Shown: one piece after another, positions 1 to 29,177 of the stretch
Layout: the number at the start of each line of letters is the position of its first letter
Position numbering within the stretch: position 1 is the first letter of the stretch
Virus record (IMG/VR): IMGVR_UViG_3300028800_000224
Location: 1-35,150 of that record
DNA: 35,150 nucleotides
Source of the DNA: a virus
Strand: one strand, 5' to 3'
Notes under the pieces: model-generated
The model's database searches: none
What the model saw: the letters and a program-made list of their open reading frames with translations, nothing else
What the model was told of the DNA's origin: nothing
Translations under genes and position numbers: made by a program

Positions 1-3000
1 GGGATTTCCCACTCGTAGCGGGCGAAGACTTTGGAAAGATCGCTTGCGCCCCACCCGGTGTATTTGGCGAGGACGGCTTGCTCTTCGGGGGTGGCCTGAC
101 GTTTGTCGGCCTCGCATTCTTTCAGGATTTTGATGGCGGCGAGATTGGCTTGCGCCTTCTGGAGGACGCTACCTTCGCCAAGTCGATCGACTTCCGTTAA
201 CTGGTAGTCTCGGCTGTAGTCGACGGGCTTTCGCCCAGATGCGGTTGATCCTCTTCGCTGGGAGGAAACGCTGCTTCCCTTGCCAGCTCCTCCGCCTGGT
301 TGTACGGAACTCCCTTTTGCGCCTGGTCGGCGAGCAGGTCGGTGTACTCCGCCCACATCCTCTTCGCCGTTGCTTCCAACTGACCCTTCTTCACCAGCTC
401 CGCGTACATCTTCGGCCGGAAGTTCTTCAAATGATCCGCTACCTTCTGTTCCCGGACGCTCAGCTTCTCCATGGGACTGCTCCGATTCCACTATAGGCTT
501 ATTCCCGGAAACTTCAACAGGCTTTTGTCCCGTGACTTCGTCACTCGGAGTAAGTCCTGTTGGCTCCTGTTTGGGGGACGGAGTAGGGGCGTCGAGGATT
601 GCCTGAACTTCAGGCGACGGCTTGACGTTGGCCTTCATCGGCATCACCAGCCCGACGGTCTTGGTGTGGCGCCGGCCCTTGGCGCTCATGATGACGACGG
701 GAGCGCCGGTGCCTGGCGGCTCCGACTTCTGGTAGAACGTGGCGTCGGGAAAGCGCTTCAAGATGTGATCGTACTGGCTTTGTGGAATCGCTACGCCATT
801 CTCGAACCAGATGTAGCGCTCGGCATCTTCGCCGGTGCCCTTGCTTGAAAACGCCCTTGGCTCAATCCGAGACTGCTTGCCCACAAGCGCCTTGTCGTAA
901 GTGCTCTCGAAGCTCGGCTTATTCAGCAGCACGTCGCCAGGCGCTTTGCCTTCGAGTAGGACGCGACCGTTTGAGTAGAACGTCCTCCCGTGGATATCGT
1001 TCTCGTAGAACCCGGAATTGCCGGCATGGAACTCGATAGCATCGAGCGGTTCATCGCCGGGCTTGTAGTCCGCGATGGGGCCCGCCTGCGTCTCAGATTT
1101 CGCGGCTTCCGTCTCGGGCTCAGCGGTTTTCGTCTGAGCTTCGGCTTTCGCCTTCCGTTCGGTGATGCCGTTGTAGTAATCGCCTTGGCCGTCGGGCACC
1201 AGGGCGTTGCGCTCCGCCTCCGTGAGGATATCCGGCCGATCATGCTTATCGAGAAAGACCTTGCCGTCTTTGTACAGGTCCAGAACGGCGTTGTCGAATT
1301 CGGGCTTGGAGGCTTCGATCTCATCTCGTAAGTGCGGGATGGACAGGCCTCCTGGTTTGCCTTTAGTGGAATCCAGGATGTGCTTCTTAACCTCGGCGGG
1401 AGATGAAGACGGTTCTGTGACTTCGCTGGCGGGTTTGAGGCTCGATGGCTGCTGTTGGGGGGCGGGTAGTGCCGACACTCGCTCCCAATGGACGGTCCGG
1501 TCCGTCTGGTCGTCATCGAAGCGAACGCGAACGCCATCACGCAATGCGTCGGGGAATCGGCGCAGGTCGAGCATAAGGATAACGGCGGTCCGCTTTCTGT
1601 CGTCCGGAGTGGTTACCAGGACGTGCTGGCCTACCGTGAATTTATGGGGTACCTCGTGGGGCTTCTCGGGCTGCTTGGAGATGAACTCCTTGATCGCGGC
1701 GTAGGTGTTCTTGATTCCAAGGGCCTTGGTCGTAGCCGCGAACCCTCTACCGTCCTTGCTGTAAGTACCACGGACGATAGCGGCCCGCATCTTGGCAACG
1801 ACGCCTGGCACGGACCCTTCGCCGTAGTGGTACTCTTTCGGGTTGTCCCGGACGATCTGACGCAGCTTTTCCTCGTACACCTTCATGAAGGTGTCGAGGT
1901 TGGGGTACTTCCTCGCGCCCTGCTCTATGTCGGCGGGCTGCCAGGGAGCGTTCGGACTAGCGCTGGCGGGTTCTTCGGTTTTCGCGCTTTCGTTATTTCT
2001 GGCTTTCTGGCTTTCTGGCCATTTGTGCGCGGGTACTTCCAGGGGCTTTGGCTTGGCCGGCGTTCCTGCTGGCGCGTTCTTCGAGAGCTGCTTGATCGCG
2101 TCCTTGATGGCCGCGCCGTGCTTCCGGACATCCGCCTCGTCCAGGCCGGTGTGCTGCTTGACGAAGTCCACATACTGCTTGTCCTGCTTGGAGGGAGTCT
2201 TCTGGGCTGCGATATAGGCGGCCTTGTCCAGATCGTTCGCAAAGTTCAGGCTGTAGGCTTTCAGGCCGTAGTTGTAGCGGGGCTTGGCTCCCGCTAACTC
2301 ATGAGGGAGCTTGGGGTTGGCGGCTGGTACTTCTCCTATTGGTTCTTTAGTTGAGGCGGGATTTCCTAGCTGACTAGGATTTTGAGGTTGTGCGGATTGT
2401 GGCGTTTCTGCAACAGACGGGACTTCTGCAGGCTCCGCCTTGCCCTCTATCGTCTTTCCGGCGAACGGGGCAGGTTTCCCTTTGGCCTGCTGCTGGCGCA
2501 ATCGAGCGTCGAGTTCCTCGGGGCTGAGGTTCATCTCCGCCGCGAGTGCTTTCATGTACTCGGCGGTGAGGAGTCCCTTGCGGCCTGCGAAGTGGGCGGG
2601 ATGCTCTCCCGGTTCCGGACGGATATTGTCGAGGTCCTTTTGGATGGCGGCGCTGGAGCGCGTCACTTCTGGAGTTGCAGTATTTGGCTGCACATTTGAC
2701 GGCAGGATGCTGCCATTTTGAGCAGTATCCGGCTGCGGGACTTCCGATCCGCTGTTCCGTTCTGCGATCGCGGTGACGTCCGGTTTCCCGTTTAGCGGGA
2801 TGTCGACCTTCTTGCCGTCCTTGCCTGAGAATTCTACCGAATCGAAGGTGACCTGCTGGTCGGTGACGCCCGGGATTTCCTGCCCGTCGTACTTTTTGCC
2901 TTCGCCTGGTTTCAGGTAGCCGACAGTGACGTGCGGCTTGTATTCCGGAAATGTGTTTCCGGTGTGTTCTACGGCATCCCCGACTAACTTGTTCAGTTTG

Positions 3001-5075
3001 TGGAGGTCGGGAGAATCGACGTCCACCTTCAGCACGTCCGACTCGCCGGCTCCGCCGCGTGCATCCTTCTTATCCTCGGCAGGGAAAACGGAGAGCGGTC
3101 CGAGCGTAACGGTGATCGGCCCCTGTCCTTCCAGCGCTTTTTCGATGGGGGCGGGGTCGGTGCCGGGGTTGCCGTACTTCAGAGTGATGTGCGACGACTT
3201 GTCCAGGCCGTCGGGCGCCAGTTCGTCTTTCGGGATGGTCTCGCCGAATGCCTGCAGGGGCTCCGCCACTGACGGGGGCATGTTGACCTGGGTGGAGCTG
3301 TAGTCGTGGGTTTCGCCGGTATCATTTGGTGCCGGAATGGAGGCCGCGCGCGGCCCCGTCGCCTTCGGGCTGGCGTAGTCCGTCGTGGAATTAACAGGCG
3401 AAATAACAGGTGGAACAGGTGAAACAACAGGTGGAACAGGTCGCTCCCCTGCCATTTCCGGTTTCCACCAGTCGGGCAGCGTTCCCCCGTTGAGAGCCCG
3501 CATGACGTCTTCGGAGATCGGCTCGGCGGATTGAGTCCCGGCGTGGTGCTGTCCGGCGTTGTCTCGCAGATGGGTGTCGTGCTCGTCCAGAATCTGATCG
3601 AGCAATCCGACTGTCTGTTTCGGGTCGAGCTGGTCCGTCTTCGTGTAAACGGTATGGACGCGACCCTCGGCGTCGGTGACCTGGCGCGCCTGCAGGGTCG
3701 TCGGTGGTTCCGGTTTCCCTTCCGATTCATCCGCGATCGCGTCGAGCAAGCCCTGTGGGATAACCGTGGTGGCTGTCGGGATCTTGCCGGTCGGTACGGT
3801 CGTGCCTCCGTTCCTGCCTGCGATATCTTCAACCGTGGCCGTTGGTGGTCCACCCGGGGTGGAGGGTGGTGTTTCCGGCGGTCCGCCCGATCCCGCCTCC
3901 ACGGCTGTCTGGTAGGCGGCGCGCGCATCGCCGATGTCTTTGACTGCCGCCGGCATCTCGCGCACGCTCGCACGCAGCATCAAGGCGGCGAACAGGCCGT
4001 CGGCTGTGCCCATTCCCCAGTCCCGGGCGGCGCCGTCGAGGTCGCCGGATTGCATTTTCTGGTAGCCCGATACGGCATTGCCGCCGGCAGCGAGGACGGC
4101 CCGGCCGCCGAATAGAGCGGTGGCGCCTTTTTGGATTCCGACGCCCACTCGTCCGAGTGCACCCATGCCGGCGGTACCGATGGCGGTGGCGATCGCGAGC
4201 GGAGATGTCAGGGATTCGGCGCTCTCGGCAACGCCCTGGATGATGTTCGCGGCGACGTGGGATTCCTGGGCGGGCTGCAGGTAGAGCTGTCCGGTTCTGC
4301 TCCGCACCATCATGGCGGGCGTGCTCGGCGGTGCCTTGAAGGCCTGCGAGAAGGGCAGGAGCGGATTGGTCAGCGCTTCCGGGACGAAATCCGACAACGT
4401 GGGATTCTTGGTCGCCTCGTGGATCGGCGGACCGCCGGCAGCGGCTTCCTGCTGGAACTTGGCCTGCGCCTGGTTGCCGGCTTTCCATGCGTCGAGTTGC
4501 CGGTTGTACTCGGCCGCGAGCGCGTTTTGCTGCGGCGTGTCCCAATGTGCGGTATGTGCCTGAAAGTCTTCCGGCGTGTCTTCCGGCAGATCCTGGCCGG
4601 GCGTCCAGTTCGGTGCGGCGAGTCCAGCGGGAAGTTGGGGCGGGGGTGTCGTCAGCGGCGGGGTGGTAATGGTGCCCTTGGGGAAGTGGGTGGCGGCGGC
4701 GGTAGCGATCGGCACGACCTTTGCGCCTGCAGGCGGTAGGGATGGCAGGATGTCGCCCAACTGCTTACCCAGCGGACGCGGTCCGGCCTGGCTCACCGGC
4801 TGTTCCTGGGGGATCGGCGAGGCGGGGGTCGCGGGCTGCGAAACGGCGGTCGCCCCGTACTTCGAGAAATCGATTACCGGGGCGCTCGGCGTGGCTGTGC
4901 TGGTTGCCGCCGGCACCGCGCCGTACTTCGAGAAATCGATAGGCGTAGCTGCCCCCTGGGGCGCGTCGGCCGCGGGGACTGCTCCGTACTTCGCGAAGTC
5001 GATCGACGGCGCGGACTGTTGCGGTTCTTCCGCTTCGGTGGCGCCGTAGCCTGCCAGATCGTCAGGAGTGAGCAT
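1..5075 (-). CDS. giant polyvalent virion/ejection protein (2H phosphoesterase, winged helix, start of DarB-like helicase-methylase), 3' end outside window
   Basis: The frame is open from ATG 5075 to the window edge, giving 1691 codons with no stop. The N-terminus has three IDFxKYGA repeats, then Pro/Ala-rich and hydrophobic stretches typical of ejected internal proteins. Residues about 590-765 hold two H-x-T motifs, HITLKYG (His629) and HVTVGYLK (His715), the signature of 2H phosphoesterases (2'-5' RNA ligase/CPDase/Acb1-type fold). Residues about 925-980 (from KPRYNYGLKAYSLNF) resemble linker domains of phage polyvalent proteins. Residues about 1222-1310 resemble a winged helix (FDNAVLDLYKDGKVFL). 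From about residue 1612, DYQLTEVDRLGEG and AVLAKYTGWGASD match the entry to the helicase/N6-methylase proteins related to P1 DarB. The gene follows two ejection-protein genes by 11 bp, the position of P22 gp16. I infer co-ejection with DNA to counter host defence. The C-terminus is not visible. Confidence 0.85.
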   Translation of the reverse strand, partial: MLTPDDLAGYGATEAEEPQQSAPSIDFAKYGAVPAADAPQGAATPIDFSKYGAVPAATSTATPSAPVIDFSKYGATAVSQPATPASPIPQEQPVSQAGPRPLGKQLGDILPSLPPAGAKVVPIATAAATHFPKGTITTPPLTTPPPQLPAGLAAPNWTPGQDLPEDTPEDFQAHTAHWDTPQQNALAAEYNRQLDAWKAGNQAQAKFQQEAAAGGPPIHEATKNPTLSDFVPEALTNPLLPFSQAFKAPPSTPAMMVRSRTGQLYLQPAQESHVAANIIQGVAESAESLTSPLAIATAIGTAGMGALGRVGVGIQKGATALFGGRAVLAAGGNAVSGYQKMQSGDLDGAARDWGMGTADGLFAALMLRASVREMPAAVKDIGDARAAYQTAVEAGSGGPPETPPSTPGGPPTATVEDIAGRNGGTTVPTGKIPTATTVIPQGLLDAIADESEGKPEPPTTLQARQVTDAEGRVHTVYTKTDQLDPKQTVGLLDQILDEHDTHLRDNAGQHHAGTQSAEPISEDVMRALNGGTLPDWWKPEMAGERPVPPVVSPVPPVISPVNSTTDYASPKATGPRAASIPAPNDTGETHDYSSTQVNMPPSVAEPLQAFGETIPKDELAPDGLDKSSHITLKYGNPGTDPAPIEKALEGQGPITVTLGPLSVFPAEDKKDARGGAGESDVLKVDVDSPDLHKLNKLVGDAVEHTGNTFPEYKPHVTVGYLKPGEGKKYDGQEIPGVTDQQVTFDSVEFSGKDGKKVDIPLNGKPDVTAIAERNSGSEVPQPDTAQNGSILPSNVQPNTATPEVTRSSAAIQKDLDNIRPEPGEHPAHFAGRKGLLTAEYMKALAAEMNLSPEELDARLRQQQAKGKPAPFAGKTIEGKAEPAEVPSVAETPQSAQPQNPSQLGNPASTKEPIGEVPAANPKLPHELAGAKPRYNYGLKAYSLNFANDLDKAAYIAAQKTPSKQDKQYVDFVKQHTGLDEADVRKHGAAIKDAIKQLSKNAPAGTPAKPKPLEVPAHKWPESQKARNNESAKTEEPASASPNAPWQPADIEQGARKYPNLDTFMKVYEEKLRQIVRDNPKEYHYGEGSVPGVVAKMRAAIVRGTYSKDGRGFAATTKALGIKNTYAAIKEFISKQPEKPHEVPHKFTVGQHVLVTTPDDRKRTAVILMLDLRRFPDALRDGVRVRFDDDQTDRTVHWERVSALPAPQQQPSSLKPASEVTEPSSSPAEVKKHILDSTKGKPGGLSIPHLRDEIEASKPEFDNAVLDLYKDGKVFLDKHDRPDILTEAERNALVPDGQGDYYNGITERKAKAEAQTKTAEPETEAAKSETQAGPIADYKPGDEPLDAIEFHAGNSGFYENDIHGRTFYSNGRVLLEGKAPGDVLLNKPSFESTYDKALVGKQSRIEPRAFSSKGTGEDAERYIWFENGVAIPQSQYDHILKRFPDATFYQKSEPPGTGAPVVIMSAKGRRHTKTVGLVMPMKANVKPSPEVQAILDAPTPSPKQEPTGLTPSDEVTGQKPVEVSGNKPIVESEQSHGEAERPGTEGSGSFEELPAEDVRGAGEEGSVGSNGEEDVGGVHRPARRPGAKGSSVQPGGGAGKGSSVSSQRRGSTASGRKPVDYSRDYQLTEVDRLGEGSVLQKAQANLAAIKILKECEADKRQATPEEQAVLAKYTGWGASDLSKVFARYEWEI
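197..472 (-). CDS. 91-aa ORF nested out of frame inside the giant gene
   Basis: This ATG-initiated ORF begins MEKLSVREQKVADHLKNF and ends in TAA at 197-199. It lies one frame away from the giant gene, which stays open across the same bases. Its product looks like a genuine helical protein (RPKMYAELVKKGQLEAT, YNQAEELAREAAFPPSEED), in the style of small phage proteins of unknown function. The giant frame here reads as Gly/Ser/Glu low-complexity linker with many A/T-ending codons. A GGAG lies about 6 nt before the ATG. It may be an overprinted gene or a former separate gene now bridged by the giant frame. No function is assigned. Expression is not shown by sequence alone. Confidence 0.45.
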   Translation of the reverse strand: MEKLSVREQKVADHLKNFRPKMYAELVKKGQLEATAKRMWAEYTDLLADQAQKGVPYNQAEELAREAAFPPSEEDQPHLGESPSTTAETTS

Positions 5076-11841: not shown

Positions 11842-14462
11842 GTCAGCAGGCCGTGCCCTGTTCCGGATTTCAAGGCGTTGTACAGGTTCTGGCACCAGGT
11901 CTGCGCGTCGGCAAGCACCGCAAAGGATGGGTTGCCGGGCCCTGTCTGCCGCACAGTCAATACCTGCTGGGGCGAAAGCGTCCCGATGCTGATCGTCTGC
12001 AGATTCGGGTTCAGGTTGATCGAGCGCGAGTTATAGAAGTCCCGGATGTCGAGGTCGCCGTATGTGCCGAGCGGGCTCTTTCCCAAAAACAGCATCGTGT
12101 TGCCCGAACCGTCCACCACGTGATAGCCCTGCGGTTCGACGGCCGCGTAGATGCCCGAGCTGTTGTCTTTGACCTTCAGTCCGACGTTCGCGGAAAGCGA
12201 GGAATCGAGCGAGTTGTCGACCGTGGTGGTAACCCCACCCACATTCAAGGTCAACGTGCACGCCGCGATCGCCCCGTTCGATCCGGAGAGCGAAACGATG
12301 GCGTGGGCCGGGTCGACTCCGCCTGCATAGAAGGCCTTAGCCCAGACGCCATAAAGCCCGCCGAGCAGATTGCCGATCCACGCGACCACGGCGTTGCTCC
12401 CGTCGAGGACGTCGATCAGTCCGGGGTTTGCGCCCGTGCCCGCCACCGTCAGCGTGCCCGCGGTAATCTGGCTCGCGTTGATATTTCCGGCGTAGATTAC
12501 GCCAGCAACAATTGTGCCGGCGGTGATCTGGTTCGCCGCGATGGTGGTGTTCGACTTGATCGCGCCGTCGAGCAGGGTAGTGGGGTCTTGCGTCGACACC
12601 CACACCGGAGTCAGTCCCGTGGCGGCGGTGTTCTTGTAAAACCCGTTCGTCACACCGCCAGCGCTGGCCGTAAGCTGGATGATCGAACCCTGCGGATAGT
12701 ACGTCGGCAGGGTAGGGAGCGAGGAAAGGACCGGGATCCCGAAGAAGCTCAACCGGCTGGACGCATCGAAGCCCAGGGTGGGAGCGACAGAACGCGGATT
12801 CACGAGCCCCAGATCGATGGCGTGCGCCTGCGGATCCGGCGTCAGATCGTAATGGTCCGCGCTTGCCGTCCAGCACTTTTGTAAGGTGTGGACATTCGGA
12901 TTGCCGGAGGGTAACTGCGCCAGTCTCGATATGGCGTACAGGCGGAACCGGAACGTCCGGTAAAGATTCGTCGAGCCGTCGATGTTCAGTGCCGGCGGGA
13001 ACGTCCAGAACGGATTGCCCGGGTTATCCGCGCCCATCAGTTGGATGGTTGCGCCCGTGGGGCCTTCGATCAGTCCGCCCGGCAATTCGCCCGAGTCGGC
13101 GATCTGGCGGCCGCGGTAAATCAGAATGTCGTCGTCGCGCCCTTCGTCGTCGGTGCCGGTGACGGGCGACGGGATCCAGAGCTTGACGGTGACGCCCGTT
13201 CCATTGCTGACCGCATTCGCGAGGGTGATGTGAGTGGTCGAATGCCAGGCCGACATCAGCACCACCGGATCGCTACCGCAGTGGACGTCGTACGGCGCCT
13301 GAGTGGATCCGATATTGGGGATCGAGCCCGAGGTAACAACGACGTCCGTGCCGCTGGTGATCGTGGCAGTGACAGTCAGCTCGTAGCCTTTTTGTACGGT
13401 GACGGATGAAAACCAGTAGTTGGGATCCGTCGCGAAGGTCGGCTCGTCCCAATCCAGTTCCCAGAAATCCCAGATCCAGATACCCGGCTCATTCAGCCGA
13501 TAAACGCGGTTGTCGCCCGATGCCGGGTTCGGCAGGAAGAAGGCGTTGCTCAGGCTGTTCGAGGGCGAGAGTCCCACCGGCTGCACGGTGAATGCGGTCT
13601 GGACATACCCGTCGGGAGGCGTGGCGGTCTGGTTGACCGCCCCCGCGATCGCGGCGGCTTTCCAGTTCACCTGCGTGGGGTCGGTGGGCACCCAATACGG
13701 CCCGTCCACCGGAGATCCGTCCGCGCCGAACGTCCGCTGTCCGAGCTCGATCGTGGGGCTACCAGTGTCCACCGTGAACGTGCCCTGCCACTCCCAGCCG
13801 TTCCCATCGTTGCGGTCGACCCACAAGGTCACCACCATGGGAAACTGGCCATTCGCCGGCGTCGGGCTAAAGTCCAAGACGGTGTGCAGGCTGCCGTTCT
13901 GGTCCGAATAGCGCAGGTCGGTTCTTTCCGTGACGGAAAGCGACGTCAGGCTGGCCGGATGAAGAACGACCGTCAGGGTAAGCGGGTTCTGGGTAAGATT
14001 GCCGTTGACGTCGTAGCAGCGGAATTCGACCGTCCAGGTCTCATCCGCCAGAGGCTGCGGTTCGACCGCTGCGCTGTAATTCAGGACAGTCGAACCCGGC
14101 ACCCAGCCCGTGAACTTGCCAAGGGCATGTTCGTTGCCGGCCGGGTCGATCGCCACCACGTCAATTTCCGTCAGCAGCGAATACGCCGGGTCTGTCGTCG
14201 GCAGCGAAATCACTCCCGAGATGACAGCGTTCTGCGGCCCGTTGCCGCTCAACTGGTAGGAGACGGCCGCGGTGGCGGTGACGATATTCGGCGCGACCCC
14301 GGAGGTTGTACCCGAAGAAGACGCCGAAGTGATCTCGTTCAGATAGCCCAGCCACGGACGGGCCACGTTGCCCAGCGCCTTGACGATCTGCGGGCCCAGG
14401 ACGGGATCGCCCGAACCGTCAAAGAAGTCGGAACGTACAGGTGGCTTGGGAGGCTTGGCCAT
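11838..14462 (-). CDS. large tail / tip protein
   Basis: This 874-aa protein starts at ATG 14462, inside a TAATG overlap with the preceding gp10-like gene. Longer in-frame starts upstream would overlap that gene. Residues about 1-45 (FFDGSGDPVLGPQIVKALGNVARPW) are helical and could be an attachment segment. The rest is beta-rich with Thr/Ser/Gly and repeated Ig-like or fibre-like strands. Residues about 590-690 (IKSNTTIAANQITAGTIVAGVIYAG, read in parts) show the NQITAGTI/SQITAGTL repeats seen in phage host-specificity and tail-tip proteins. The C-terminus (ILTVRQTGPGNPSFAVLADA) is a small separate domain. I infer a tail component distal to the gp10-like hub, possibly the equivalent of a needle or tip. 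Confidence 0.75.
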   Translation of the reverse strand: MAKPPKPPVRSDFFDGSGDPVLGPQIVKALGNVARPWLGYLNEITSASSSGTTSGVAPNIVTATAAVSYQLSGNGPQNAVISGVISLPTTDPAYSLLTEIDVVAIDPAGNEHALGKFTGWVPGSTVLNYSAAVEPQPLADETWTVEFRCYDVNGNLTQNPLTLTVVLHPASLTSLSVTERTDLRYSDQNGSLHTVLDFSPTPANGQFPMVVTLWVDRNDGNGWEWQGTFTVDTGSPTIELGQRTFGADGSPVDGPYWVPTDPTQVNWKAAAIAGAVNQTATPPDGYVQTAFTVQPVGLSPSNSLSNAFFLPNPASGDNRVYRLNEPGIWIWDFWELDWDEPTFATDPNYWFSSVTVQKGYELTVTATITSGTDVVVTSGSIPNIGSTQAPYDVHCGSDPVVLMSAWHSTTHITLANAVSNGTGVTVKLWIPSPVTGTDDEGRDDDILIYRGRQIADSGELPGGLIEGPTGATIQLMGADNPGNPFWTFPPALNIDGSTNLYRTFRFRLYAISRLAQLPSGNPNVHTLQKCWTASADHYDLTPDPQAHAIDLGLVNPRSVAPTLGFDASSRLSFFGIPVLSSLPTLPTYYPQGSIIQLTASAGGVTNGFYKNTAATGLTPVWVSTQDPTTLLDGAIKSNTTIAANQITAGTIVAGVIYAGNINASQITAGTLTVAGTGANPGLIDVLDGSNAVVAWIGNLLGGLYGVWAKAFYAGGVDPAHAIVSLSGSNGAIAACTLTLNVGGVTTTVDNSLDSSLSANVGLKVKDNSSGIYAAVEPQGYHVVDGSGNTMLFLGKSPLGTYGDLDIRDFYNSRSINLNPNLQTISIGTLSPQQVLTVRQTGPGNPSFAVLADAQTWCQNLYNALKSGTGHGLLT

Positions 14463-16423
14463 TACGAAATGCCCACGAAATAGTCGAGGAAGCAATTGAC
14501 CAACGCTTTCCTCGCGTTGCCGGTGACCGCAATGCGGAATACGCGGTTGTCAGCCGAGCCGAGTTGCCAGAAAGCCGCGCGGTCGAGTTTCTTTGAGGTC
14601 GACGCGGTATAGACGAAGTCCGCGCTGCCGGCGCTCCAGGTGTTGCCGCCGTCGGTGCTGACCTCTCCACCGACCCAGTTGGTCCCGCCGTCGTCCGACC
14701 AGGAAACGGTGATGGTCAGCGCGTTGCCCCCGCCCGTCTCGAGATCGAGCTGCAGCTTCTGGAAGAACTGGCGTAAGCGGTTGGCGTCCAAATGCGGCAG
14801 CGTCCGCGCGCACAGCATCGGCTGCGTGTTGTCGGTGTAAATCGAATCCGACAACTGGTAGATCTGGCCGTTAGCGAAGTCACCCACCCAGTGCTTGTTG
14901 AAGACATGGCAGTGGCAGCTTGCCCGGTGGCGGTGGAATGCCGAGCCGTCGTAGCTGTTGCGTTCGTGCCACATCGGCTTGCCGAACTGCTCGGAAGCGG
15001 TCCGGTCGTACACCCAGGTCTGGTCGCCGGTTGGGAACGAGACCTGCCAGAACTCATGCCCGTCGAGTTCGTACACAAATGCGATCGCGTCCGAGAACTG
15101 CGCATACTTCTTCCAGGCCTTCTCGATCGCGTGGGTGGAAATTCTTACCGGTACGAACCCCTTGGCGAAGTAGGCGATAGGTTGGCCTCGCAAGCTTGCG
15201 CCGATCCACACCGGCCCGTCTCGCAAAGAACAGAGCGACGCCGGTGCCGCAATCCCGATCGGGACGGTATAGGAGTCGTTTCGGCCAAAGGGAAGATTCG
15301 GGTCGTTCGAAAGCCCGGGTTGCCAGACTTCCATGGTCGACTCGCCTAGGATGAGCAACTCCTGGTGGTCCGCCGCAATCGCGCCGATGTTGTCCGGGTA
15401 GCTCTCCTTCACGGCCTGGTCGGTCGGGTCGAAGGTGGACCCATCGTTCGGAGCCGAGAACTGGAACACCTTGGAGTTCGGGGTGGCCACCACGAAGAAG
15501 CTGTCGAGGAACGCGCCGCTCGATGCGTAGATCGGTCCGAAGACTTCGGTCGCCGATCCGCCCGCAGAGCCTTCCGTTGCCGGGGAAGATGACAGCGTGG
15601 CGTTTCCGTACGCGTCGACGGAATTAATGGTGGGACTGACTGCCGAGAATGCGCCGCCGCCGGCGAAGTTCAAAGTCGCGCCCACGTCGGCCGCGGTGAA
15701 CGGATTCGCCGCGCTGAACGCGATCACATTACTGAGGACGATGTCGTAAGTCGCCCCCGTCAGGTTGACCGTGTACCCGAGCGGGCCGACATTCAGATGC
15801 GTCGGGTCGACGACGTTCGTGACGAAATAGGCCACCCCGTTCAGCAGGATGGTCATTCCGTTCATGCCGGAATTGAAAGGATTGCCGCTCAGCGCTTCCA
15901 AGTGGCCGTGCACGACGTTGCAGGTGCCTGCCCACCCGATCGCGATGTCGCCGTAAGCCGAGCCCGGGTAATTGATTGCCACCGGCCCGAGGCCGCTATC
16001 GCAGTAGAATTGCCCCGCGCTCACGATGCCCAACTGGTTGCCGTTTACCAGCAAGGTCACCGGCCGGCCGTCGTTCCCGACCGATCCGCGCCACGGATTG
16101 CCGCCCAGGCCGTTGATGGGCGATCCGGAGGAGTCCAGTTCGTAGAGATACTGCCCGGAAACGACAAACCACCGGCCGCCCGATCCATCGAGAGGATTCA
16201 AGGGCGTGCCGGCGGCCAGCATTCCACGAATTGGTCCACCTCCCAGGGTGGTGTGCGGTACGTCGAGCCCCGGGCAACCGCGCAGATATCCGATTTGCGG
16301 TTCGCTGTCATTCTCGGCGGCGATGATTTCCGCAAAGAGATTCAGCAGTCTTTGGGCGCCAGCCAGCAAGCTATCGAGGAGGTAAGGCCCGGAAAGCCAG
16401 CCTTTCATGGGAAGCAGGGGCAT
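14462..16423 (-). CDS. packaged-DNA stabilisation / tail hub protein, P22 gp10-like
   Basis: This 653-aa protein is of the expected kind for the gp10 family that plugs the portal-gp4 channel. The N-terminus (about 13-30, YLLDSLLAGAQRLLNLFAE) and the following IGYLRGCPGLDV resemble the RCQNLYLE.../GTPGL start of that family. Later motifs YAIAYFA-like (PIAYFAKGFVPVRISTHAIE), FWQVSFPTGDQTWVYD and ERNSYDGSAFHRHR are typical beta-propeller strands. ATG 16423 has no clear Shine-Dalgarno; Met6 (16408) is an alternative. It lies just downstream of the gp4-like gene, separated by a plus-strand gene, in P22 order. Confidence 0.8.
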   Translation of the reverse strand: MPLLPMKGWLSGPYLLDSLLAGAQRLLNLFAEIIAAENDSEPQIGYLRGCPGLDVPHTTLGGGPIRGMLAAGTPLNPLDGSGGRWFVVSGQYLYELDSSGSPINGLGGNPWRGSVGNDGRPVTLLVNGNQLGIVSAGQFYCDSGLGPVAINYPGSAYGDIAIGWAGTCNVVHGHLEALSGNPFNSGMNGMTILLNGVAYFVTNVVDPTHLNVGPLGYTVNLTGATYDIVLSNVIAFSAANPFTAADVGATLNFAGGGAFSAVSPTINSVDAYGNATLSSSPATEGSAGGSATEVFGPIYASSGAFLDSFFVVATPNSKVFQFSAPNDGSTFDPTDQAVKESYPDNIGAIAADHQELLILGESTMEVWQPGLSNDPNLPFGRNDSYTVPIGIAAPASLCSLRDGPVWIGASLRGQPIAYFAKGFVPVRISTHAIEKAWKKYAQFSDAIAFVYELDGHEFWQVSFPTGDQTWVYDRTASEQFGKPMWHERNSYDGSAFHRHRASCHCHVFNKHWVGDFANGQIYQLSDSIYTDNTQPMLCARTLPHLDANRLRQFFQKLQLDLETGGGNALTITVSWSDDGGTNWVGGEVSTDGGNTWSAGSADFVYTASTSKKLDRAAFWQLGSADNRVFRIAVTGNARKALVNCFLDYFVGIS

Positions 16424-17671: not shown

Positions 17672-18937
17672 CTACGGCCTGCCAATCACGCTGAACAATC
17701 CTCGCGCCTGATCGGCATAACCCGGTCCGTTTGGATGCACCGAATCGTTATATAGCCCGAGGGGATTCGTCACAGCATAAGAGACCCAGCGCCCGAAGAT
17801 ATCGAAGGATGCAGTGCCGGCAGAGGCTGCGAGACCTTGAATCACCGCCTGGAATGACTGCTGCGTGGCGTATGACGCGTGGCCACTCGGATCGGTCGGG
17901 GTATAGGTGTACAAAAGCACGTCACCCACAGCCTGTGCTGCCGTGACAATTGCTGACAGGTTTGCCTGAAACGTTGAGGGTGAGACGCTATTGTTGGCGT
18001 CGTTGATTCCCAGACAAATCACGCTCAGGTCCTGGCCCAGCGAGAGCGTGTTTGGGACCGAGAAGATGTTCAGCGCGCCCGACCAGTCGGAACTCTGCGA
18101 GCCCACCCAGCCCCCATTCAATGTGAGCACCTGCTTTTTCGAAGAGTCGTACGCGTCGATCCCCAGAATGTAGACCGTGCCCGACACCCAGTTCAGGTTC
18201 AGGGTGTTGCTGGTCAACGAGCCGGTCACTGTCAGGGTCTGTATGCTGTTTGTGCCATTCGTGCTCTTCGTTGTGTCGCTTCCGCCATTAATATTCCATT
18301 TGTAAGATCCGCCACCCCCAAATTGGAAGAAATAGATTACGAAGGTATCAACGTTGACGGTCGGGAGGAATGCGAGGCTCGATGTAGAGGATGTCGCGGA
18401 GAACGTGTCGCCACCAGGGAAGGTAGCGCCAGTCTTACTCCATCCGGACCCGACCGTGAGACGGCCATCGTACTGCGAGGTTTCTGAGCCTGCACCGCGA
18501 TTTCCTCCGTTTCCAAGCCATCCATTCGCTTCGCTGGTAATCCCAATTCCGCTAAACTGTGAGGCGATATAGGAACTGAGGCCGTTGTAGCGCATCTGTA
18601 AGGTGGTGGCGTTCGAGCCATAAAACTGAGTACTGTCTCCAATGAACAGGATCTTGGCATTGGCTGTCCCAGCCGCGACCTTGCCCAGCGCCGCTCTCCA
18701 ATGGGGCAGCAACACCGCCTGATTGGTATTCGGCCCGATGATCCCCTGCGTGGGACTGATTACAATGCCCGCACTCCCAGGTGCCGTAGTCCCTACCTCA
18801 AGGGTGTCTCCCGGGTTGGTTGGCGACAAGGTGGTGCCTGTCCGCGTCCACCCCGACGGGCTGCCGGAGCCACCCGGCTTAGGGAACTGGGCTAAGGCGA
18901 GGCCGGCAAAAAGAAAGATGGCTGTCAGGCGTTTCAT
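17672..18937 (-). CDS. exported SGNH/GDSL-family hydrolase
   Basis: This 421-aa protein starts at ATG 18937, in an ATGA overlap with the gene before. A signal peptide covers residues 1-17 (MKRLTAIFLFAGLALAQ), followed by a Pro/Gly/Ser linker. SGNH catalytic blocks are visible: block I GDS with nucleophile Ser102 (ILFIGDST), block III GIND with Asn312, and block V DSVH with Asp398 and His401. A beta-sandwich-like insertion lies between blocks I and III (about residues 150-260). This family removes acyl or acetyl groups from esters and polysaccharides. In a virion operon, a secreted enzyme suggests modification of host surface glycans or receptors, or a tail-borne deacetylase. The signal peptide favours export from the infected cell. 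Confidence 0.85.
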   Translation of the reverse strand: MKRLTAIFLFAGLALAQFPKPGGSGSPSGWTRTGTTLSPTNPGDTLEVGTTAPGSAGIVISPTQGIIGPNTNQAVLLPHWRAALGKVAAGTANAKILFIGDSTQFYGSNATTLQMRYNGLSSYIASQFSGIGITSEANGWLGNGGNRGAGSETSQYDGRLTVGSGWSKTGATFPGGDTFSATSSTSSLAFLPTVNVDTFVIYFFQFGGGGSYKWNINGGSDTTKSTNGTNSIQTLTVTGSLTSNTLNLNWVSGTVYILGIDAYDSSKKQVLTLNGGWVGSQSSDWSGALNIFSVPNTLSLGQDLSVICLGINDANNSVSPSTFQANLSAIVTAAQAVGDVLLYTYTPTDPSGHASYATQQSFQAVIQGLAASAGTASFDIFGRWVSYAVTNPLGLYNDSVHPNGPGYADQARGLFSVIGRP

Positions 18938-19419
18938 TGCTCGCTCCAGTAGAGGGTGATGTTCGCCGTGCCCGTGATCGAGGAGATGGCGATGGTGTAG
19001 TTCGTGCCCGTGCCCGTGTTGCCCATATGCATCAGCGTCAGGTCGAGCGTCTGGTGCTCGCCGGCCGCGAGAGACAGGATGCCGCCGGCGGGGGTGCCTG
19101 CGCCGACGTTGGAGGCTGTCCACACGGTGGCGATCGCGGCGGGGCCGATCGGGAGGAGGGCGTTAACCGTGCCGGCAGTGGCGGTGGCCGCCGTGCCGTT
19201 CTGCGACTGCGTCACGTCGCAGGCAACCGAGCATTGGACCACGGCTGCGACGAGGCTGACCTGCTTGGCATTGGTTGCCGGTTGCTGGATGGTGAACTTG
19301 GTGCCGGCGCCGGAAAGCGTAACGTTCCCGGTGGTCGCCGAATAGGCGTTAGGGGTTTGCTGGGCGCTGGCGGTAAACGCGAGGAGCGCCAAAAGGCCGA
19401 TCAGAAGGAAGGATTTCAT
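18934..19419 (-). CDS. exported beta-rich protein between portal and SGNH hydrolase
   Basis: This 161-aa protein has a clean signal peptide (MKSFLLIGLLALLAFTASAQ). The rest is a Thr/Ala/Gly-rich beta protein with two Cys close together (VQCSVACDV) and a C-terminus ending NITLYWSEQ. It is coupled by ATGA overlaps to the portal upstream and the SGNH hydrolase downstream, so the three form one block. Family not recognised. A virion decoration protein with a leader is unusual. A periplasmic or surface partner of the hydrolase is equally possible. Confidence 0.75.
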   Translation of the reverse strand: MKSFLLIGLLALLAFTASAQQTPNAYSATTGNVTLSGAGTKFTIQQPATNAKQVSLVAAVVQCSVACDVTQSQNGTAATATAGTVNALLPIGPAAIATVWTASNVGAGTPAGGILSLAAGEHQTLDLTLMHMGNTGTGTNYTIAISSITGTANITLYWSEQ

Positions 19420-21692
19420 GAGGGGTTCTCTCCGGAAGTTGCGGTCGGCGGCTGCTGGGCCTGTTTGCCGGCCATCTCCTGCTGGTGCGCCTGGTCAGCC
19501 TGCTGGAGCGACTGATCGAACTGCTGCTGCTTGTCCTGCAGTTGTTGGGCCTGGGCATGTTCCATGGCGTCGCCGGCGGCGTCCGCTTCGACCGTGATCT
19601 GGTGGTGGAGCAGTTCCGCGCGCCGGTCGAGCTCGCCCTGGATGTGGGAGTGGTCCAGTTCGGCGATCTTGTTCATGACGGCCGATTTGGCGGTGGTCTC
19701 GGCGGCCTGCATCTTGACGACGTTGGTTTGCGTCGCGATGCGTTCGGCCGATTCGATTTTGGCGCGGGCGATGCGTTCGGCCGAATCGGCGCGTACCTGT
19801 AGTTCCGTCAGCTTGCCCTTGACCATCTGCAGCAGCTGAGCGTTCTGCTGGGTGAGCTGCTGGATGGCCTGCTGGTCCTGCGCCATCTTGGCCTGGAGCT
19901 GCGGCGGCACGTCGGGGTTGCCGTCGTCGTCCTGCAGGGCGGGAGGCAGAGCCTTTTTGAAGCGCTTCGCGAGACGGTCGGCGCCGATGAAGTCCTGGTT
20001 CTCGAAGAAGATGTCGGCCGCCAATTGCCAGACTTCCGGATTGCCTTGGGCGAGAGCCATGATCATCTCGCGGGTTTCGAGCCGCTGCGTCTGATAGCTT
20101 GGCCCCTGGTCGACGGTGACGTCGTACTTGCCGGCGTCGAGCAGGTAATGATACGGCTTGCCGTCCTTGTCCGCCCCCGGAGCGTTGACTTGGACAATTC
20201 GTTCCTTCTGGTCATCCCCGATGATGCGGACCTCGCGGGCGGTGTCGTACTTCTTGGGGATGAGTTCGACCAGGATCCGGCCGCCGCGCTTGATGGCGCG
20301 TGCCAGGTTGTCGAGGAAGTGGAAGTTCGAGACGTCGCCCTGCCGCTGCAGGAGGCCAATAGCCTTTCCCGACTGCTCGGCCTTTTGATTGCCCAGGGAG
20401 GGGTCGAAATACCCCGTGGATGCCTTGATGTCGTCGATCGCGGCAGCGGCGCCGGTCGCCAGCGCCTGGACCGGAGGATCGAACGTTCTCCATTGGGGCT
20501 CGGGCGCCATCTTGTCGCCCACAGCCACCGGATCGTACTCAAGATACGCGGCGTTGTCGGTGTTCGCCCGCTGCCAGTCTTTCCGCTTGGTCTTGAACTG
20601 CCCGACCGCCCCCACCCACTTCGGCTTGGGGGCCAAGGCGATGGTCTCGGCCTCCATCGTCTTGTAGTAGTTGAGGAGCTGCTGCGGATCGCGCGCAAAG
20701 CGCGTCATCGAGAAGATCTTGCGTTTGCCCCTGACGACCATTTCAAGGCCGGTGACCATCACGATCGGGATGGTCGACCCGTCCCATCTGGTGGGCTCTT
20801 CCAGGACTTCGCTGCCGTTGATGATGTACTGCATCACCACAGGCAGTTCGTCTGTCGCCTCTTTGGCGGGGGAGTCCGGGTCGTCTTCGTCCTCGCGCAC
20901 CCACTCGAAGGAGCCGGGATCTTCGTCTTCGTCCAGGTCTTCCAGGTAAACCGGGTGAACCGTACCGTCCTCGTCCCGGCGATAGCGTAGGGTCTTCGGT
21001 TCGGTGGTGACTTCCCAGTACTCGCAAACGCGACGGGTGTTGTCGCCGTACCAGCCCTCGGAGACGAGGGTGGAGCGGAACTCCGACGTCAGGTCCGACG
21101 TGTCCTCGCCGAAGCGCGCCTGGTAGGCGTCGTCGGCCATCTTGTCCTCGACGAACGCCCACTTCATGTCGGAGCGGTCGGGCTTCCTGGCGTTGTTGTC
21201 GAGGTAGACGGAGAACGGATCTTCGACCGTGACGGACTTCAATTCCTGGTCGAAGCTTCCGGGGATGCGTTCGCAGGTGTAGCGCCAGTAGCCGAAGCCG
21301 CAGCCGGCGGCGTAAAGCAGCGCGGTGTCGTAGGCCTGGTCGGCATCCGAGTCGTACTCGATATGCCGGATCATTCCCTGCAGGACTTTGGCCGTGTCCG
21401 GATCCCCCGCGGAATCGACCGGGCTGATCTTGATCGCCGGTTTGTTCTGCCGCGCCTGGTTGCCCAGCTGCAGGACGGGAGGCAGGACTTTATTGAAGAC
21501 TAGACAGGGGCGCGGAGACGGGCCTCGTTCCCTTTCACTCTTGACCTTGCGGTCCCACTGGTCTCCTGAGAGGTAATCGAGATCCAAGAGAGCTTCAGCT
21601 CTGATCTCACTCTCCGCCTGTACGGCCGCGTTGTACCTCTTACGTGCTCGTTCGAGGACTTCGGCGTACTGGGACTGTTCTGGGCGGGGCAT
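19416..21692 (-). CDS. portal protein, P22 gp1-like
   Basis: This 758-aa protein matches P22-type portals in length and layout. Near the start it has LDYLSGDQWDRKVK, then RPCLVFNKVLPPVLQLGNQARQ. These are followed by DADQAYDTALLYAAGCGFGYWR and EDPFSVYLDNNARKPD-type motifs and an acidic insertion (about residues 250-280). The C-terminus is a long Gln/Ala-rich coiled coil (QQNAQLLQMVKGKLTELQVR, then DKQQQFDQSLQQADQAHQQE), as in the P22 barrel. It forms the dodecameric DNA gate. The ATG at 21692 is followed by a normal reading frame, and the leader runs into repeat copy 4. Downstream it is coupled (ATGA) to the exported protein, not to scaffold and coat as in P22. Confidence 0.92.
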   Translation of the reverse strand: MPRPEQSQYAEVLERARKRYNAAVQAESEIRAEALLDLDYLSGDQWDRKVKSERERGPSPRPCLVFNKVLPPVLQLGNQARQNKPAIKISPVDSAGDPDTAKVLQGMIRHIEYDSDADQAYDTALLYAAGCGFGYWRYTCERIPGSFDQELKSVTVEDPFSVYLDNNARKPDRSDMKWAFVEDKMADDAYQARFGEDTSDLTSEFRSTLVSEGWYGDNTRRVCEYWEVTTEPKTLRYRRDEDGTVHPVYLEDLDEDEDPGSFEWVREDEDDPDSPAKEATDELPVVMQYIINGSEVLEEPTRWDGSTIPIVMVTGLEMVVRGKRKIFSMTRFARDPQQLLNYYKTMEAETIALAPKPKWVGAVGQFKTKRKDWQRANTDNAAYLEYDPVAVGDKMAPEPQWRTFDPPVQALATGAAAAIDDIKASTGYFDPSLGNQKAEQSGKAIGLLQRQGDVSNFHFLDNLARAIKRGGRILVELIPKKYDTAREVRIIGDDQKERIVQVNAPGADKDGKPYHYLLDAGKYDVTVDQGPSYQTQRLETREMIMALAQGNPEVWQLAADIFFENQDFIGADRLAKRFKKALPPALQDDDGNPDVPPQLQAKMAQDQQAIQQLTQQNAQLLQMVKGKLTELQVRADSAERIARAKIESAERIATQTNVVKMQAAETTAKSAVMNKIAELDHSHIQGELDRRAELLHHQITVEADAAGDAMEHAQAQQLQDKQQQFDQSLQQADQAHQQEMAGKQAQQPPTATSGENPS

Positions 21693-25082: not shown

Positions 25083-25216
25083 TCGGTGCGTCTTTTCGCG
25101 GCTGCGATGACATCTACGATCACCTCTCCAAGCTTTTCCACTAATAGGTAGACGGTCACGGCGGCGGCTGCGCAGATATAAGGATTTTCCGCGGCGAGTT
25201 GGACGTATTCCTTCAT
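25079..25216 (-). CDS. 45-aa single-span membrane protein
   Basis: ATG 25216 overlaps the GroES-like stop (ATGA), and its own stop overlaps the next ATG. The product MKEYVQLAAENPYICAAAAV continues TVYLLVEKLGEVIVDVIAAAKRRTE: one membrane segment with a charged C-terminus. It could be a small holin or envelope protein. The short length gives no family. The double coupling makes it likely to be a real gene. Confidence 0.65.
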   Translation of the reverse strand: MKEYVQLAAENPYICAAAAVTVYLLVEKLGEVIVDVIAAAKRRTE

Positions 25217-25671
25217 GCCTCGACAACTCCGTATGCAAACTGCTGTTCGTGGAACATGACGTACGTTTCGCCTTCGAGCGTCAGAGAGTATTCCCCGCCC
25301 GGCATCGAAGGCCTTCGCGGCAGCACGACGCGATCGCCGACCTTGACTTCCATCGGGGCGTGGCCGGTGGCCACCATCTCGGAGGCCGATTCCCCGCATT
25401 CGCACTTGCCGACCGAAATACCGCTGCGGACGTTCCTCTTATTGAGGATGCGCGTGCGCGTCTTGCGGCACTTCTTGCATTCGAGGATTACTAACTGGTC
25501 GCCGGGCCCGGTGGCCACCACCGTGCCAATGAAGCTGTCGTGGTAGTCGCCCGGCCGGTCCGCGCCGGCGAGCACGCCTTGCGGAATGACGATGGATCCG
25601 ATCCTGTCAGCCACGTGGTCGGGCTTCACGAGAATCATGTCCCCGAGGGGACGGAAGTTAACGGCGTTCAT
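25213..25671 (-). CDS. GroES-like co-chaperonin with inserted Cys4 zinc module
   Basis: The start is ATG 25671, with AAAGGAGG 10 nt upstream and an ATGA overlap with the preceding small ORF. The product has 152 aa; Cpn10 proteins are usually about 95-100. Residues 6-60 (FRPLGDMILVKPD, IVIPQGV, IGTVVATGPGD) and 106-152 (VKVGDRVVLP, GETYVMFHEQQFAYGVV) are the two halves of a Cpn10 barrel. Between them about 45 residues are inserted, with C65-x2-C68 and C90-x-C92, likely binding zinc. Phage co-chaperonins (T4 gp31) replace GroES in folding capsid protein; that role is inferred here. No GroEL partner is in the window. Confidence 0.85.
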   Translation of the reverse strand: MNAVNFRPLGDMILVKPDHVADRIGSIVIPQGVLAGADRPGDYHDSFIGTVVATGPGDQLVILECKKCRKTRTRILNKRNVRSGISVGKCECGESASEMVATGHAPMEVKVGDRVVLPRRPSMPGGEYSLTLEGETYVMFHEQQFAYGVVEA

Positions 25672-25799
25672 TCGCTTGCGGCCTCCTTTGCCTGCATGCG
25701 TAGTCGACGCGGCGACGCTATCGCGCCAGCCCGGGCGCGATCCAATTGCCGCAAGAAACTGCCTAGCCACCAGCCAAGCATCTGGAACAGATACGTCAT
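25668..25799 (-). CDS. 43-aa coupled small protein upstream of the GroES-like gene
   Basis: ATG 25799 forms ATGA with the stop of the 25796-25996 gene, and its TGA (25670-25668) overlaps the GroES-like ATG. The product is MTYLFQMLGWWLGSFLRQLD followed by a basic Arg/Ala tail. The N-terminal 18 residues are strongly hydrophobic or amphipathic with paired Trp, suggesting a membrane-associated peptide. Its 3' end carries the ribosome site for the GroES-like gene. Exact coupling on both sides supports it despite its size. Confidence 0.6.
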   Translation of the reverse strand: MTYLFQMLGWWLGSFLRQLDRARAGAIASPRRLRMQAKEAASE

Positions 25800-27360: not shown

Positions 27361-27594
27361 TCCGTCTTGTGTTCTTTTGCAGAAAGGACACCTGTATCCA
27401 TTCAGAGCCCACTTCTCCGAAGGTTCGAGTACTCCGCAGAAGTGACAGTGGATATTTCCCTGGACGAGAACTTCTTCCATGCCCAATCGAAACATCCGTT
27501 CCAGTTCGCCGATCTGTTCGTGATCCGCTTCGGAAAGTGCCACCATACAGCGAAGCTTGGCTTGTGCGGCCGACTTGCTGAGTTCCTGGGTCAT
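27352..27594 (-). CDS. small zinc-ribbon protein
   Basis: This 80-aa protein starts at ATG 27594 in an ATGA overlap with the terminase stop (ATG 27603 is possible, adding 3 residues). After a helical start (SEADHEQIGELERMFRLGME) there are two CxxC knuckles, CHFCG and CPFCKR, the pattern of a zinc ribbon. The last residues and stop (GSC, TAA) fall in repeat copy 6. Possibly a nucleic-acid-binding partner of the packaging genes; not established. Confidence 0.7.
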   Translation of the reverse strand: MTQELSKSAAQAKLRCMVALSEADHEQIGELERMFRLGMEEVLVQGNIHCHFCGVLEPSEKWALNGYRCPFCKRTQDGSC

Positions 27595-29177
27595 CGCATC
27601 CATCCGCCCGGTCTCGCGCCGAAGTTCCCGCCCATCTGCAGGAACTGCTCTTCTTCGTCCTCTTCGTCCTTCGGTTCGACGGGCCCCACGTGCTGTGCAA
27701 AGGTGAGCGCTAAAGCGTCTCCGTCGTCGGGAGAGTCGAAACCGCGCGCCTGCATTTCGGCTTTCGATTCGAGGAACAGCTTGCCGGTCTTCTCTTTGAC
27801 GGTCGCCCCGGGCGCTCCTAGGTCGATTGCCAGCCTGTCGTCAGCCGGGCCGATCGCGCCCTTGGGCAGCCATTCCTTCATCGCGTTCCACATATAGGCG
27901 CGCATGTTGCCCATGTGGCGGTCGGGCGACGGCGCTCCGAAGGTCACTTCGATGACATTGGAATAGCCCAGGACGTGAAGACGTTCCACGTAAGGCGCTC
28001 CGAATGCCGAGTCGACGAACATGGCGGCAACCTTGCGGTCCGGATGCTCGTCGCGCATCACTCCCGCGAGTTTGGCGATCAGCGCATTGCGATCGCGCGT
28101 CTGTTCGCCCGGCACGCGGATCGGCGCCGGCACTCTGGGCCCGGGCCGTGCGTCGAGGCCCCGGCGGAAGCGAATCACCGCCCACGCCTTGCCCCCGCCC
28201 GATGCGTCGAAGCCGGCGATCAGCGGTTCGTCGTCGAAGGTGACGACTGCCTCCCGCTGCTGCGCGGCCTTGATGCGCGCGCTATCGATGAACTGCAGTT
28301 CGTCCTGTGCCGGCGGTAGTCCCATGACACGCACTCGAAAGTAGTCGCTGTCCTCGCCGTACGTCTGGCGCCACTCTTCGATCTCGTCCTTATTGGTGAG
28401 TCGGGAGGAGCGGCTATCGAACCGCCGCGACATCCACTCCTTGCGGAGCTTGCCGGAGGTGACCTCGAAGAACTTGCCCGAGTTTCGCTCCGGCTGCCCC
28501 CAGGCGAACCACATGGGCTGTCCGTCGGTCAGTCCGCCCTGGGCCACTTCCCAGACCTTGTCGGGTACGAGGGACGCCTCGTCGAACATGTACCAACTGG
28601 TCGACGTCAGTGCGTGCTGGCCGGCGAAGGCCTGCGCGTTCTCTTCCTTGCAGGTCTGCGGGGTGACGTTCCAGGCTTTCGGCCTTCCTTTATGGAAGAT
28701 CCCGTTTGCTTGCACGTGGAACCAGTGCCCGGTGATGCACAGCCTGGTCCAGCGCTGAATCGCCGCCCAAGTGCGCGTCTCGAGCTGCTTCCAGGTGCCC
28801 GCGGTTACCGTCCCCAGGGAATCGGGCCTGGTCGACAGGATCCAGTTCGTCAGCCAGGCTCCCATGGCCGACTTGCCGGTACCGTGACCCGACGCGATCG
28901 CCATGCGGATGGGCTTGACTGGCGCGGTCCCGTCGAAGCGTCGCTTCCTTACTTCCTTGCCCAGGTCGTCGAGGAAGCGCTCCTGATTTTCGTCGGGCCC
29001 GGACTGGTTGGCGAGTTCGGTTCCTTTGACGCCCCACGGGTACGCGTAGTAGACGAATCCCAGAGGGTTAGCCCAGTATCCCGCGACGTCCGCATGGATC
29101 AGGCGTTCCCGCTCAGCCTTCGGGCTCTTCCGCTTGGGCGGGTGCGTCCGCGTCGGTCTGATTTCTGGCTGATTCAC
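27591..29177 (-). CDS. terL: terminase large subunit
   Basis: This 528-aa packaging motor has an ATPase domain with Walker A GHGTGKS (residues 97-103) and Walker B YMFDEAS with Asp199/Glu200. The nuclease domain shows GFDASGGGK (Asp324), MFVDSAFG (Asp389) and DSPDDGDALALTFA (Asp487 region), the acidic triad of the RNase H-like fold. It cuts and pumps phage DNA into the prohead through the portal. The start at 29177 overlaps the small-subunit gene by 65 bp. The C-terminus is acidic and ends in GGWMR. Strong assignment. Confidence 0.93.
   Translation of the reverse strand: MNQPEIRPTRTHPPKRKSPKAERERLIHADVAGYWANPLGFVYYAYPWGVKGTELANQSGPDENQERFLDDLGKEVRKRRFDGTAPVKPIRMAIASGHGTGKSAMGAWLTNWILSTRPDSLGTVTAGTWKQLETRTWAAIQRWTRLCITGHWFHVQANGIFHKGRPKAWNVTPQTCKEENAQAFAGQHALTSTSWYMFDEASLVPDKVWEVAQGGLTDGQPMWFAWGQPERNSGKFFEVTSGKLRKEWMSRRFDSRSSRLTNKDEIEEWRQTYGEDSDYFRVRVMGLPPAQDELQFIDSARIKAAQQREAVVTFDDEPLIAGFDASGGGKAWAVIRFRRGLDARPGPRVPAPIRVPGEQTRDRNALIAKLAGVMRDEHPDRKVAAMFVDSAFGAPYVERLHVLGYSNVIEVTFGAPSPDRHMGNMRAYMWNAMKEWLPKGAIGPADDRLAIDLGAPGATVKEKTGKLFLESKAEMQARGFDSPDDGDALALTFAQHVGPVEPKDEEDEEEQFLQMGGNFGARPGGWMR

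Follow-up and report, generated by a model that had tools for sequence, protein, structure and literature searches.

What does a domain with the active-site motifs of a phosphoesterase do inside a giant protein encoded next to the DNA-ejection genes of a phage? The stretch of DNA analyzed here (hereafter the window, positions 1 to 35,150 of IMG/VR virus record IMGVR_UViG_3300028800_000224) belongs to a P22-like soil phage, and its first 5 kb are occupied by a reading frame of at least 1691 amino acids that stays open to the contig end (Table 1). The initial annotation held that this protein carries a 2H phosphoesterase domain related to Acb1, lies in the ejection-protein position upstream of a DarB-like module, and could enter the cell with the DNA and degrade a nucleotide alarm signal.

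A 2H phosphoesterase domain in the giant protein

The two H-x-T motifs are exactly where they had been placed, with H629 (codon 3191-3189) and H715 (codon 2933-2931) separated by 86 residues. The span first given for the domain (2790-3310) covers the same stretch but is out of frame, residues 590-765 corresponding to the coordinates listed in Table 1. A bare H-x-S/T pair is weak evidence, because 37% of composition-shuffled versions of the giant protein also contain a loose pair 60-110 residues apart; pairs with flanking hydrophobic residues occur in 0.9% of such versions, and an H-[VIL]-T-[VIL] pair in 1 of 5000. A chance pairing of motifs was nevertheless rejected, as profile, fold and relatives all oppose it. 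The Pfam family PF13563 (2_5_RNA_ligase2) matches the isolated domain with 29.7 bits (E 7.6e-7, gathering cut-off 27), while within the whole giant protein it scores 24.2 bits, slightly under that cut-off, and PHROG 755, described as "RNA ligase", matches the giant protein as well (E 5e-6). The AlphaFold2 model of the domain, built from 69 aligned sequences, reached a mean pLDDT of 93.4 and a pTM of 0.88, and in a Foldseek search this model matched 34 PDB chains (E <= 0.001), which with few exceptions are 2H enzymes, e.g., drCPDase, Usb1, LigT, the poxvirus cGAMP PDE and Acb1. Two of the features that define the 2H superfamily, the pair of H-x-[ST] motifs and the 2H fold (here in a predicted model), are present, which bears out the proposed domain and confirms that the giant protein carries a complete 2H phosphoesterase domain with its active-site motifs intact. 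PADLOC gave no hits when run on the giant protein.

Scanning viral contigs with the single sequence gave no relatives of the domain; the alignment-based scan gave 346, of which 80 were kept and 68 of these were distinct, being 35-63% identical to the window domain. The scan pattern consisted of the second HxT motif only, so that the invariance of this motif is partly imposed by the search; the first was not asked for and is present in all 69 sequences (the 68 relatives and the window domain), every one of which also matches PF13563. This bears on the idea that the 2H fold catalyzes nothing and has been retained for a structural role in the ejection apparatus, where it would bind nucleotides or DNA. 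The domain does sit within a protein at a structural position, but a first HxT retained throughout the family at such divergence, and without the search requiring it, leaves this idea with a very small chance of being right.

Gene order and the carriers of the domain

Behind the portal and gp10-like genes, the window shows a P22-type block in the order gp7-like, gp20-like, giant. The placement of the giant gene at an ejection-protein position thus stands, as it is the third gene of this block, and the order gp10-like, gp7-like, gp20-like, giant is kept in the closest relative, a P22-like contig of 90 kb (G001). There the giant (L096-L097, 33367-52992) is a single frame of 6541 aa containing DnaJ, 2H, ddrB-ParB and Strawberry-notch helicase domains. 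The 674-aa gp20-like protein had no match among phage and Pfam families.

The predicted DarB-like module was likewise recovered downstream of the 2H domain, with the contig ending inside it. Its YTGWGAS fits the motif GXG[G/A/S] of LPD36, which is described in Iyer et al. 2017 (PMC5512222) as a domain N-terminal to a methylase-helicase pair. In another related phage (G003, giant frame of 4962 aa) the DarB-like segment is 56% identical to that of the window, and the frame continues past it into methylase and SNF2-type helicase domains. With a 2H domain and a DarB-like segment in one late-operon reading frame, the giant has the make-up of a polyvalent protein.

Table 1 Features of the window discussed in the text
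Feature	Position	Strand	Evidence
Giant polyvalent ejection protein (putative)	3..5075	-	1691+ aa, contig ends within; relatives' frames 3402-6541 aa
DarB-like segment with YTGWGAS, residues 1537-1679	39..467	-	phrog_10089 E 1.2e-15
2H phosphoesterase domain, giant protein residues 590-765	2781..3308	-	PF13563, AlphaFold2, Foldseek, 68 other distinct relatives
Second catalytic HxT motif, H715-V-T717 (HVTVGYLK)	2925..2933	-	Sequence; invariant, but required by the search pattern
First catalytic HxT motif, H629-I-T631 (HITLKYG)	3183..3191	-	Sequence; H and T in 69/69
Second ejection-block gene (P22 gp20-like by position), 674 aa	5087..7111	-	26% identical gene at the same place in G001
First ejection-block gene (gp7-like), 324 aa	7116..8090	-	phrog_598 DNA ejection E 3.3e-7; 49% identical in G001
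P22 gp10-like head-closure protein	14462..16423	-	phrog_578 E 3e-78; PF11134 E 3e-5
P22-like portal	19416..21692	-	PF16510 E 1.8e-158; portal 67% identical in G001
Terminase large subunit	27591..29177	-	phrog_2 terminase E 1.6e-22

Several other features of these late regions were recorded. The N-terminus of the giant protein (window about 4850-5075) has IDFSKYGA-type repeats, three copies and a weaker first one, of which the start of the G001 giant shows none. Scaffold- and coat-like genes are present in G001 (66477-68799), and a coat gene also in G022 (L101:8939-10150); no convincing match to either was found in the window between 16813 and 21692, where only about 1.9 kb separate the portal from the gp4-like gene, and a deletion, a misassembly or a relocation beyond the contig are the alternatives for this gap. 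Two late-operon reading frames (18934-19419 and 17672-19123) begin with signal-peptide-like N-termini (MKSFLLIGLLALLAFTASAQ, MKRLTAIFLFAGLALAQ), and about seven signal-peptide-like genes lie amid the head genes of G001 (60062-77603), which is unusual for phage structural regions. The window also encodes an UpxY/RfaH-type antiterminator (31929-32438, E 3.9e-23) and, as judged by eye, a GroES-like protein (25213-25770).

The domain recurs in a variety of carriers. Among the 68 relatives, 35 are large proteins (>=1000 aa, many with a frame that runs off the locus), 11 are portal-like at the N-terminus, eight are standalone and 14 are intermediate. According to Pfam, portal and MuF domains share chains with the 2H domain in some relatives, and LPD38, LPD5, ART-PolyVal, Zeta toxin, Peptidase M15, DnaJ and other domains do so elsewhere. 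When 13 relatives were compared with the window protein, the best-matching shared stretch was the 2H domain in 12 of them. On the family tree, 21 architecture changes were counted against a shuffled mean of 29.9 (the bootstrap is not fully settled and some labels come from truncated loci), and the domain therefore appears to have moved repeatedly among these settings. Standalone copies adjoin terminase or portal genes at three loci (L069, L077 and L033), and another lies beside terminase/portal genes in LR756511 (gene roles by eye), while two standalone members (L042 and L067) have no clear head-gene neighbours.

The existence of standalone members, some of them away from recognizable head genes, would suit a scenario in which the giant protein is expressed late and never packaged, its 2H domain acting in the infected cell as free Acb1 does. 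The position in the ejection block and the fusions to portal and MuF speak against it, and we hold this scenario to be improbable. The best reading would instead be a virion-borne, co-ejected 2H enzyme, because the giant is the third gene of an ejection block and its relatives occur in giant, portal, MuF and head-adjacent settings.

Two carriers outside the window deserve note. The solved portal of cyanophage Pam3 (PDB 8hds) has a C-terminal Acb1-like 2H domain at residues 484-610, which matches a phage Acb1 profile (E 2.9e-8) and has both motifs (HVT and HIS), making it an intact candidate enzyme within a known virion structure. The Tunturiibacter phage Tunturi_5, which has been isolated and is in culture, encodes between its connector and minor tail genes a protein annotated as MutT/NUDIX hydrolase (ORF321, L004:1432-5520) that by eye reads as polyvalent, combining a metalloprotease-like motif with 2H, GNAT and two ART-like domains in the order protease-2H-ART-GNAT-ART.

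Subfamily and probable substrate of the domain

Acb1, to which the initial annotation had related the window domain, destroys CBASS cyclic-nucleotide signals. Compared with solved structures, the family profile is nearest to Acb1 of Burkholderia phage BCSR5 (E 8e-9), followed by plant CPDase (2.5e-6), an archaeal LigT-like protein (1.8e-5) and FBB1 Acb1 (4.9e-5), and profile-profile comparison with phage Acb1 gave 97.8% probability over 100 columns. In Acb1 the catalytic tetrad is formed by H44, T46, H113 and T115, the aromatic Y12, W74 and F107 stack on the bases, E141 contacts adenine and W147 is part of the lid (PMC9117128). The tetrad has counterparts in the window domain, and Y12, W74 and F107 align with Y592, F664 and F709, positions that are aromatic in most relatives (the F107 position is often His, and Y12 falls outside the hhalign core). 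Thus, the link to Acb1 holds for the nearest solved profile match and for the tetrad. It does not hold for the Acb1 family PF23474, which gives the window domain 15.6 bits against a cut-off of 27 (some relatives pass it, e.g., L024 and L036 with 35.3 bits), nor for E141 and W147, whose positions are taken by K755 and L761, residues that are not conserved in the family (from a sequence alignment that is less sure at the C-terminus). Strict membership in Acb1 is rejected on this score and these mismatches, and a LigT equivalog is rejected by TIGR02258 (14 bits, cut-off 65.7). The structure prediction for residues 590-765 yields the 2H fold without setting Acb1 apart from CPDase, LigT or Usb1: in the Foldseek ranking, CPDase and Usb1 come no lower than Acb1, and similarity to LigT is equally high. 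As these Acb1 features are missing and the fold scores do not separate the subfamilies, the domain is, going by these alignments, better assigned to a separate phage subfamily of 2H phosphoesterases than to Acb1, and a specific tie to Acb1 or CBASS is not supported. SSTQ at the N-terminus, G635, K722 and a K-x-G-x-G-x-K-Y-x-G stretch after the second motif would mark this subfamily.

A fold so close to CPDase and Usb1 raises the question whether RNA is the substrate of the ejected domain, which would then repair the 2',3'-cyclic phosphate termini that anticodon nucleases and toxins leave, or degrade host RNA as a Usb1-like exoribonuclease. Structures of both enzymes are among the best fold matches, PF13563 is matched by the entire family, and RNase action is one of the options named in Iyer et al. 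2017 (PMC5512222). An RNA ligase (PF09414 or PF09511) occurs in four of 22 related records; the remaining 18, which like the others are fragments, have none, and this speaks against a standing RNA-repair partnership. Moreover, Pfam found no RNA-binding neighbour domain in the window protein and the family profile is nearest in sequence to Acb1, so that a role on RNA appears possible yet unlikely. The section of Iyer et al. 2017 (PMC5512222) that deals with these domains states that an RNA ligase partner was "never observed", whereas here such ligases do occur, if not as a consistent partner.

The highest TM-score among the listed PDB matches (0.69) belongs to 1jh7, the Appr>p (plant ADP-ribose cyclic) phosphodiesterase of Arabidopsis. 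Action on ADP-ribose cyclic phosphate is known for the 2H superfamily, one family member shares its chain with an ART-PolyVal domain, and the order read by eye in Tunturi_5 ORF321 also combines 2H with ART-like domains. The domain might accordingly serve phage NAD/ADP-ribose tactics by clearing ADP-ribose signals or ADP-ribose 1'',2''-cyclic phosphate; with neither an ART nor a macro domain found by Pfam in the window protein, and Foldseek E-values that do not favour the Appr>p phosphodiesterase subfamily, this seems rather improbable.

As for the cell in which the domain would act, a closer-alignment scan gave three strong matches in bacterial genome bins, two in Acidobacteriota and one in Chloroflexi, and the genome scan also gave a remote Brevundimonas/Caulobacter family. 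Since two of the three strong matches lie in that phylum, the hosts are probably Acidobacteriota. The CBASS cyclase family PF18144 (SMODS) scored above its cut-off in 11 of 149 sampled genomes from the phylum of the Pyrinomonadaceae hit, a low prevalence that keeps CBASS from being named as the specific target and makes it one of several possible ones.

We postulate that the giant protein is a late product, packaged into the head along with the other ejection proteins and delivered to the next host together with the DNA. In the host, its 2H domain would cleave, independently of metal, a small nucleotide with a cyclic or 2'-positioned phosphodiester. The most likely target would be a second messenger used by a nucleotide-signalled defence, such as a cyclic oligonucleotide of the CBASS type or a related molecule; its removal would precede the expression of phage genes, and the DarB-like module would shield the incoming DNA alongside it. 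Packaging and ejection of the giant protein and cleavage of an alarm nucleotide are plausible steps. For the reading as a whole, i.e., a co-ejected 2H phosphoesterase of a phage likely infecting Acidobacteriota that removes a defence nucleotide signal at entry, we estimate a probability of roughly 45%; the domain, its fold, the intact active-site motifs, the gene position and the recurrence in head-associated proteins are shown by computation, and packaging, ejection, catalysis, substrate and anti-defence action are what we infer from them. A broader proposition is more doubtful, namely that this distinct subfamily is a widespread virion-borne immune-signal nuclease that tailed phages have shifted repeatedly among portal and MuF fusions, standalone genes of the head operon and giant ejection proteins, destroying second messengers at DNA entry, possibly including ones that resist Acb1.

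Comparison with known systems

A prediction of this kind is already in print. Iyer et al. 2017 (PMC5512222) treat the 2H domains of polyvalent proteins, MuF and portal fusions included, in a section of their own, and proposed that these either act as RNases or degrade defence nucleotides; the packaged-and-injected, anti-signalling proposal returns in Iyer et al. 2022 (PMC9503650). The anti-signal role suggested by the initial annotation is therefore a rediscovery, because the passages of these two papers on 2H domains contain the same prediction, and the literature searched held no experimental test of the 2017 injected-2H prediction. We regard as useful additions the family alignment, the confident model, the placement in a P22-type ejection block and the case made from individual residues that the domain is not simply an Acb1. 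If the proposal is true, the alarm could be dampened while the phage has yet to synthesize a single protein, and the timing of nucleotide-signalled defence would have to be seen differently. Outside this contig there are two handles: Tunturi_5, an isolated phage with a 2H polyvalent protein, and Pam3, whose solved portal has an Acb1-like 2H domain.

With the polyvalent, portal and MuF proteins in the 2H section of Iyer et al., the window protein has in common a 2H domain within a large, probably injected multidomain protein with a DarB-like, LPD36-type segment. It differs from the cases given there in belonging to a P22-like phage, most likely of Acidobacteriota, and in occupying the third ejection-gene position, and those parts of the two papers (PMC5512222, PMC9503650) that treat such proteins do not mention DarB and 2H together in a block of ejection genes.

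P22 gp16 is far smaller than the giant protein of the window and, to our knowledge, has no such enzyme domain. What the window does share with P22 gp7, gp20 and gp16 and with the N4 virion RNA polymerase is a block of probably co-ejected proteins and the precedent of a giant enzyme, the N4 polymerase being an ejected protein of about 3,500 residues (PMC12633501). The likeness to DarB of phage P1 lies in the C-terminal segment, which matches the DarB-like family; in contrast to P1 DarB, the contig ends before any methylase or helicase, and a 2H domain is located N-terminal to the DarB-like segment.

With LigT (TIGR02258, PF02834) and plant CPDase, the domain shares the fold and both HxT motifs, but it is below the PF02834 cut-off, as it is for TIGR02258, and its context is of virion type. 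Acb1 (T4 57B, FBB1 and BCSR5) has the same HxT/HxT tetrad and base-stacking aromatics that may have counterparts here, whereas the window domain has a different C-terminal region with the K-x-G-x-G-x-K-Y-x-G stretch. Acb1 is small and, like Apyc1, a free phage protein active against immune nucleotide signals in infected cells (PMC9117128), while the 2H domain of the window is part of a giant protein that would probably arrive with the DNA.
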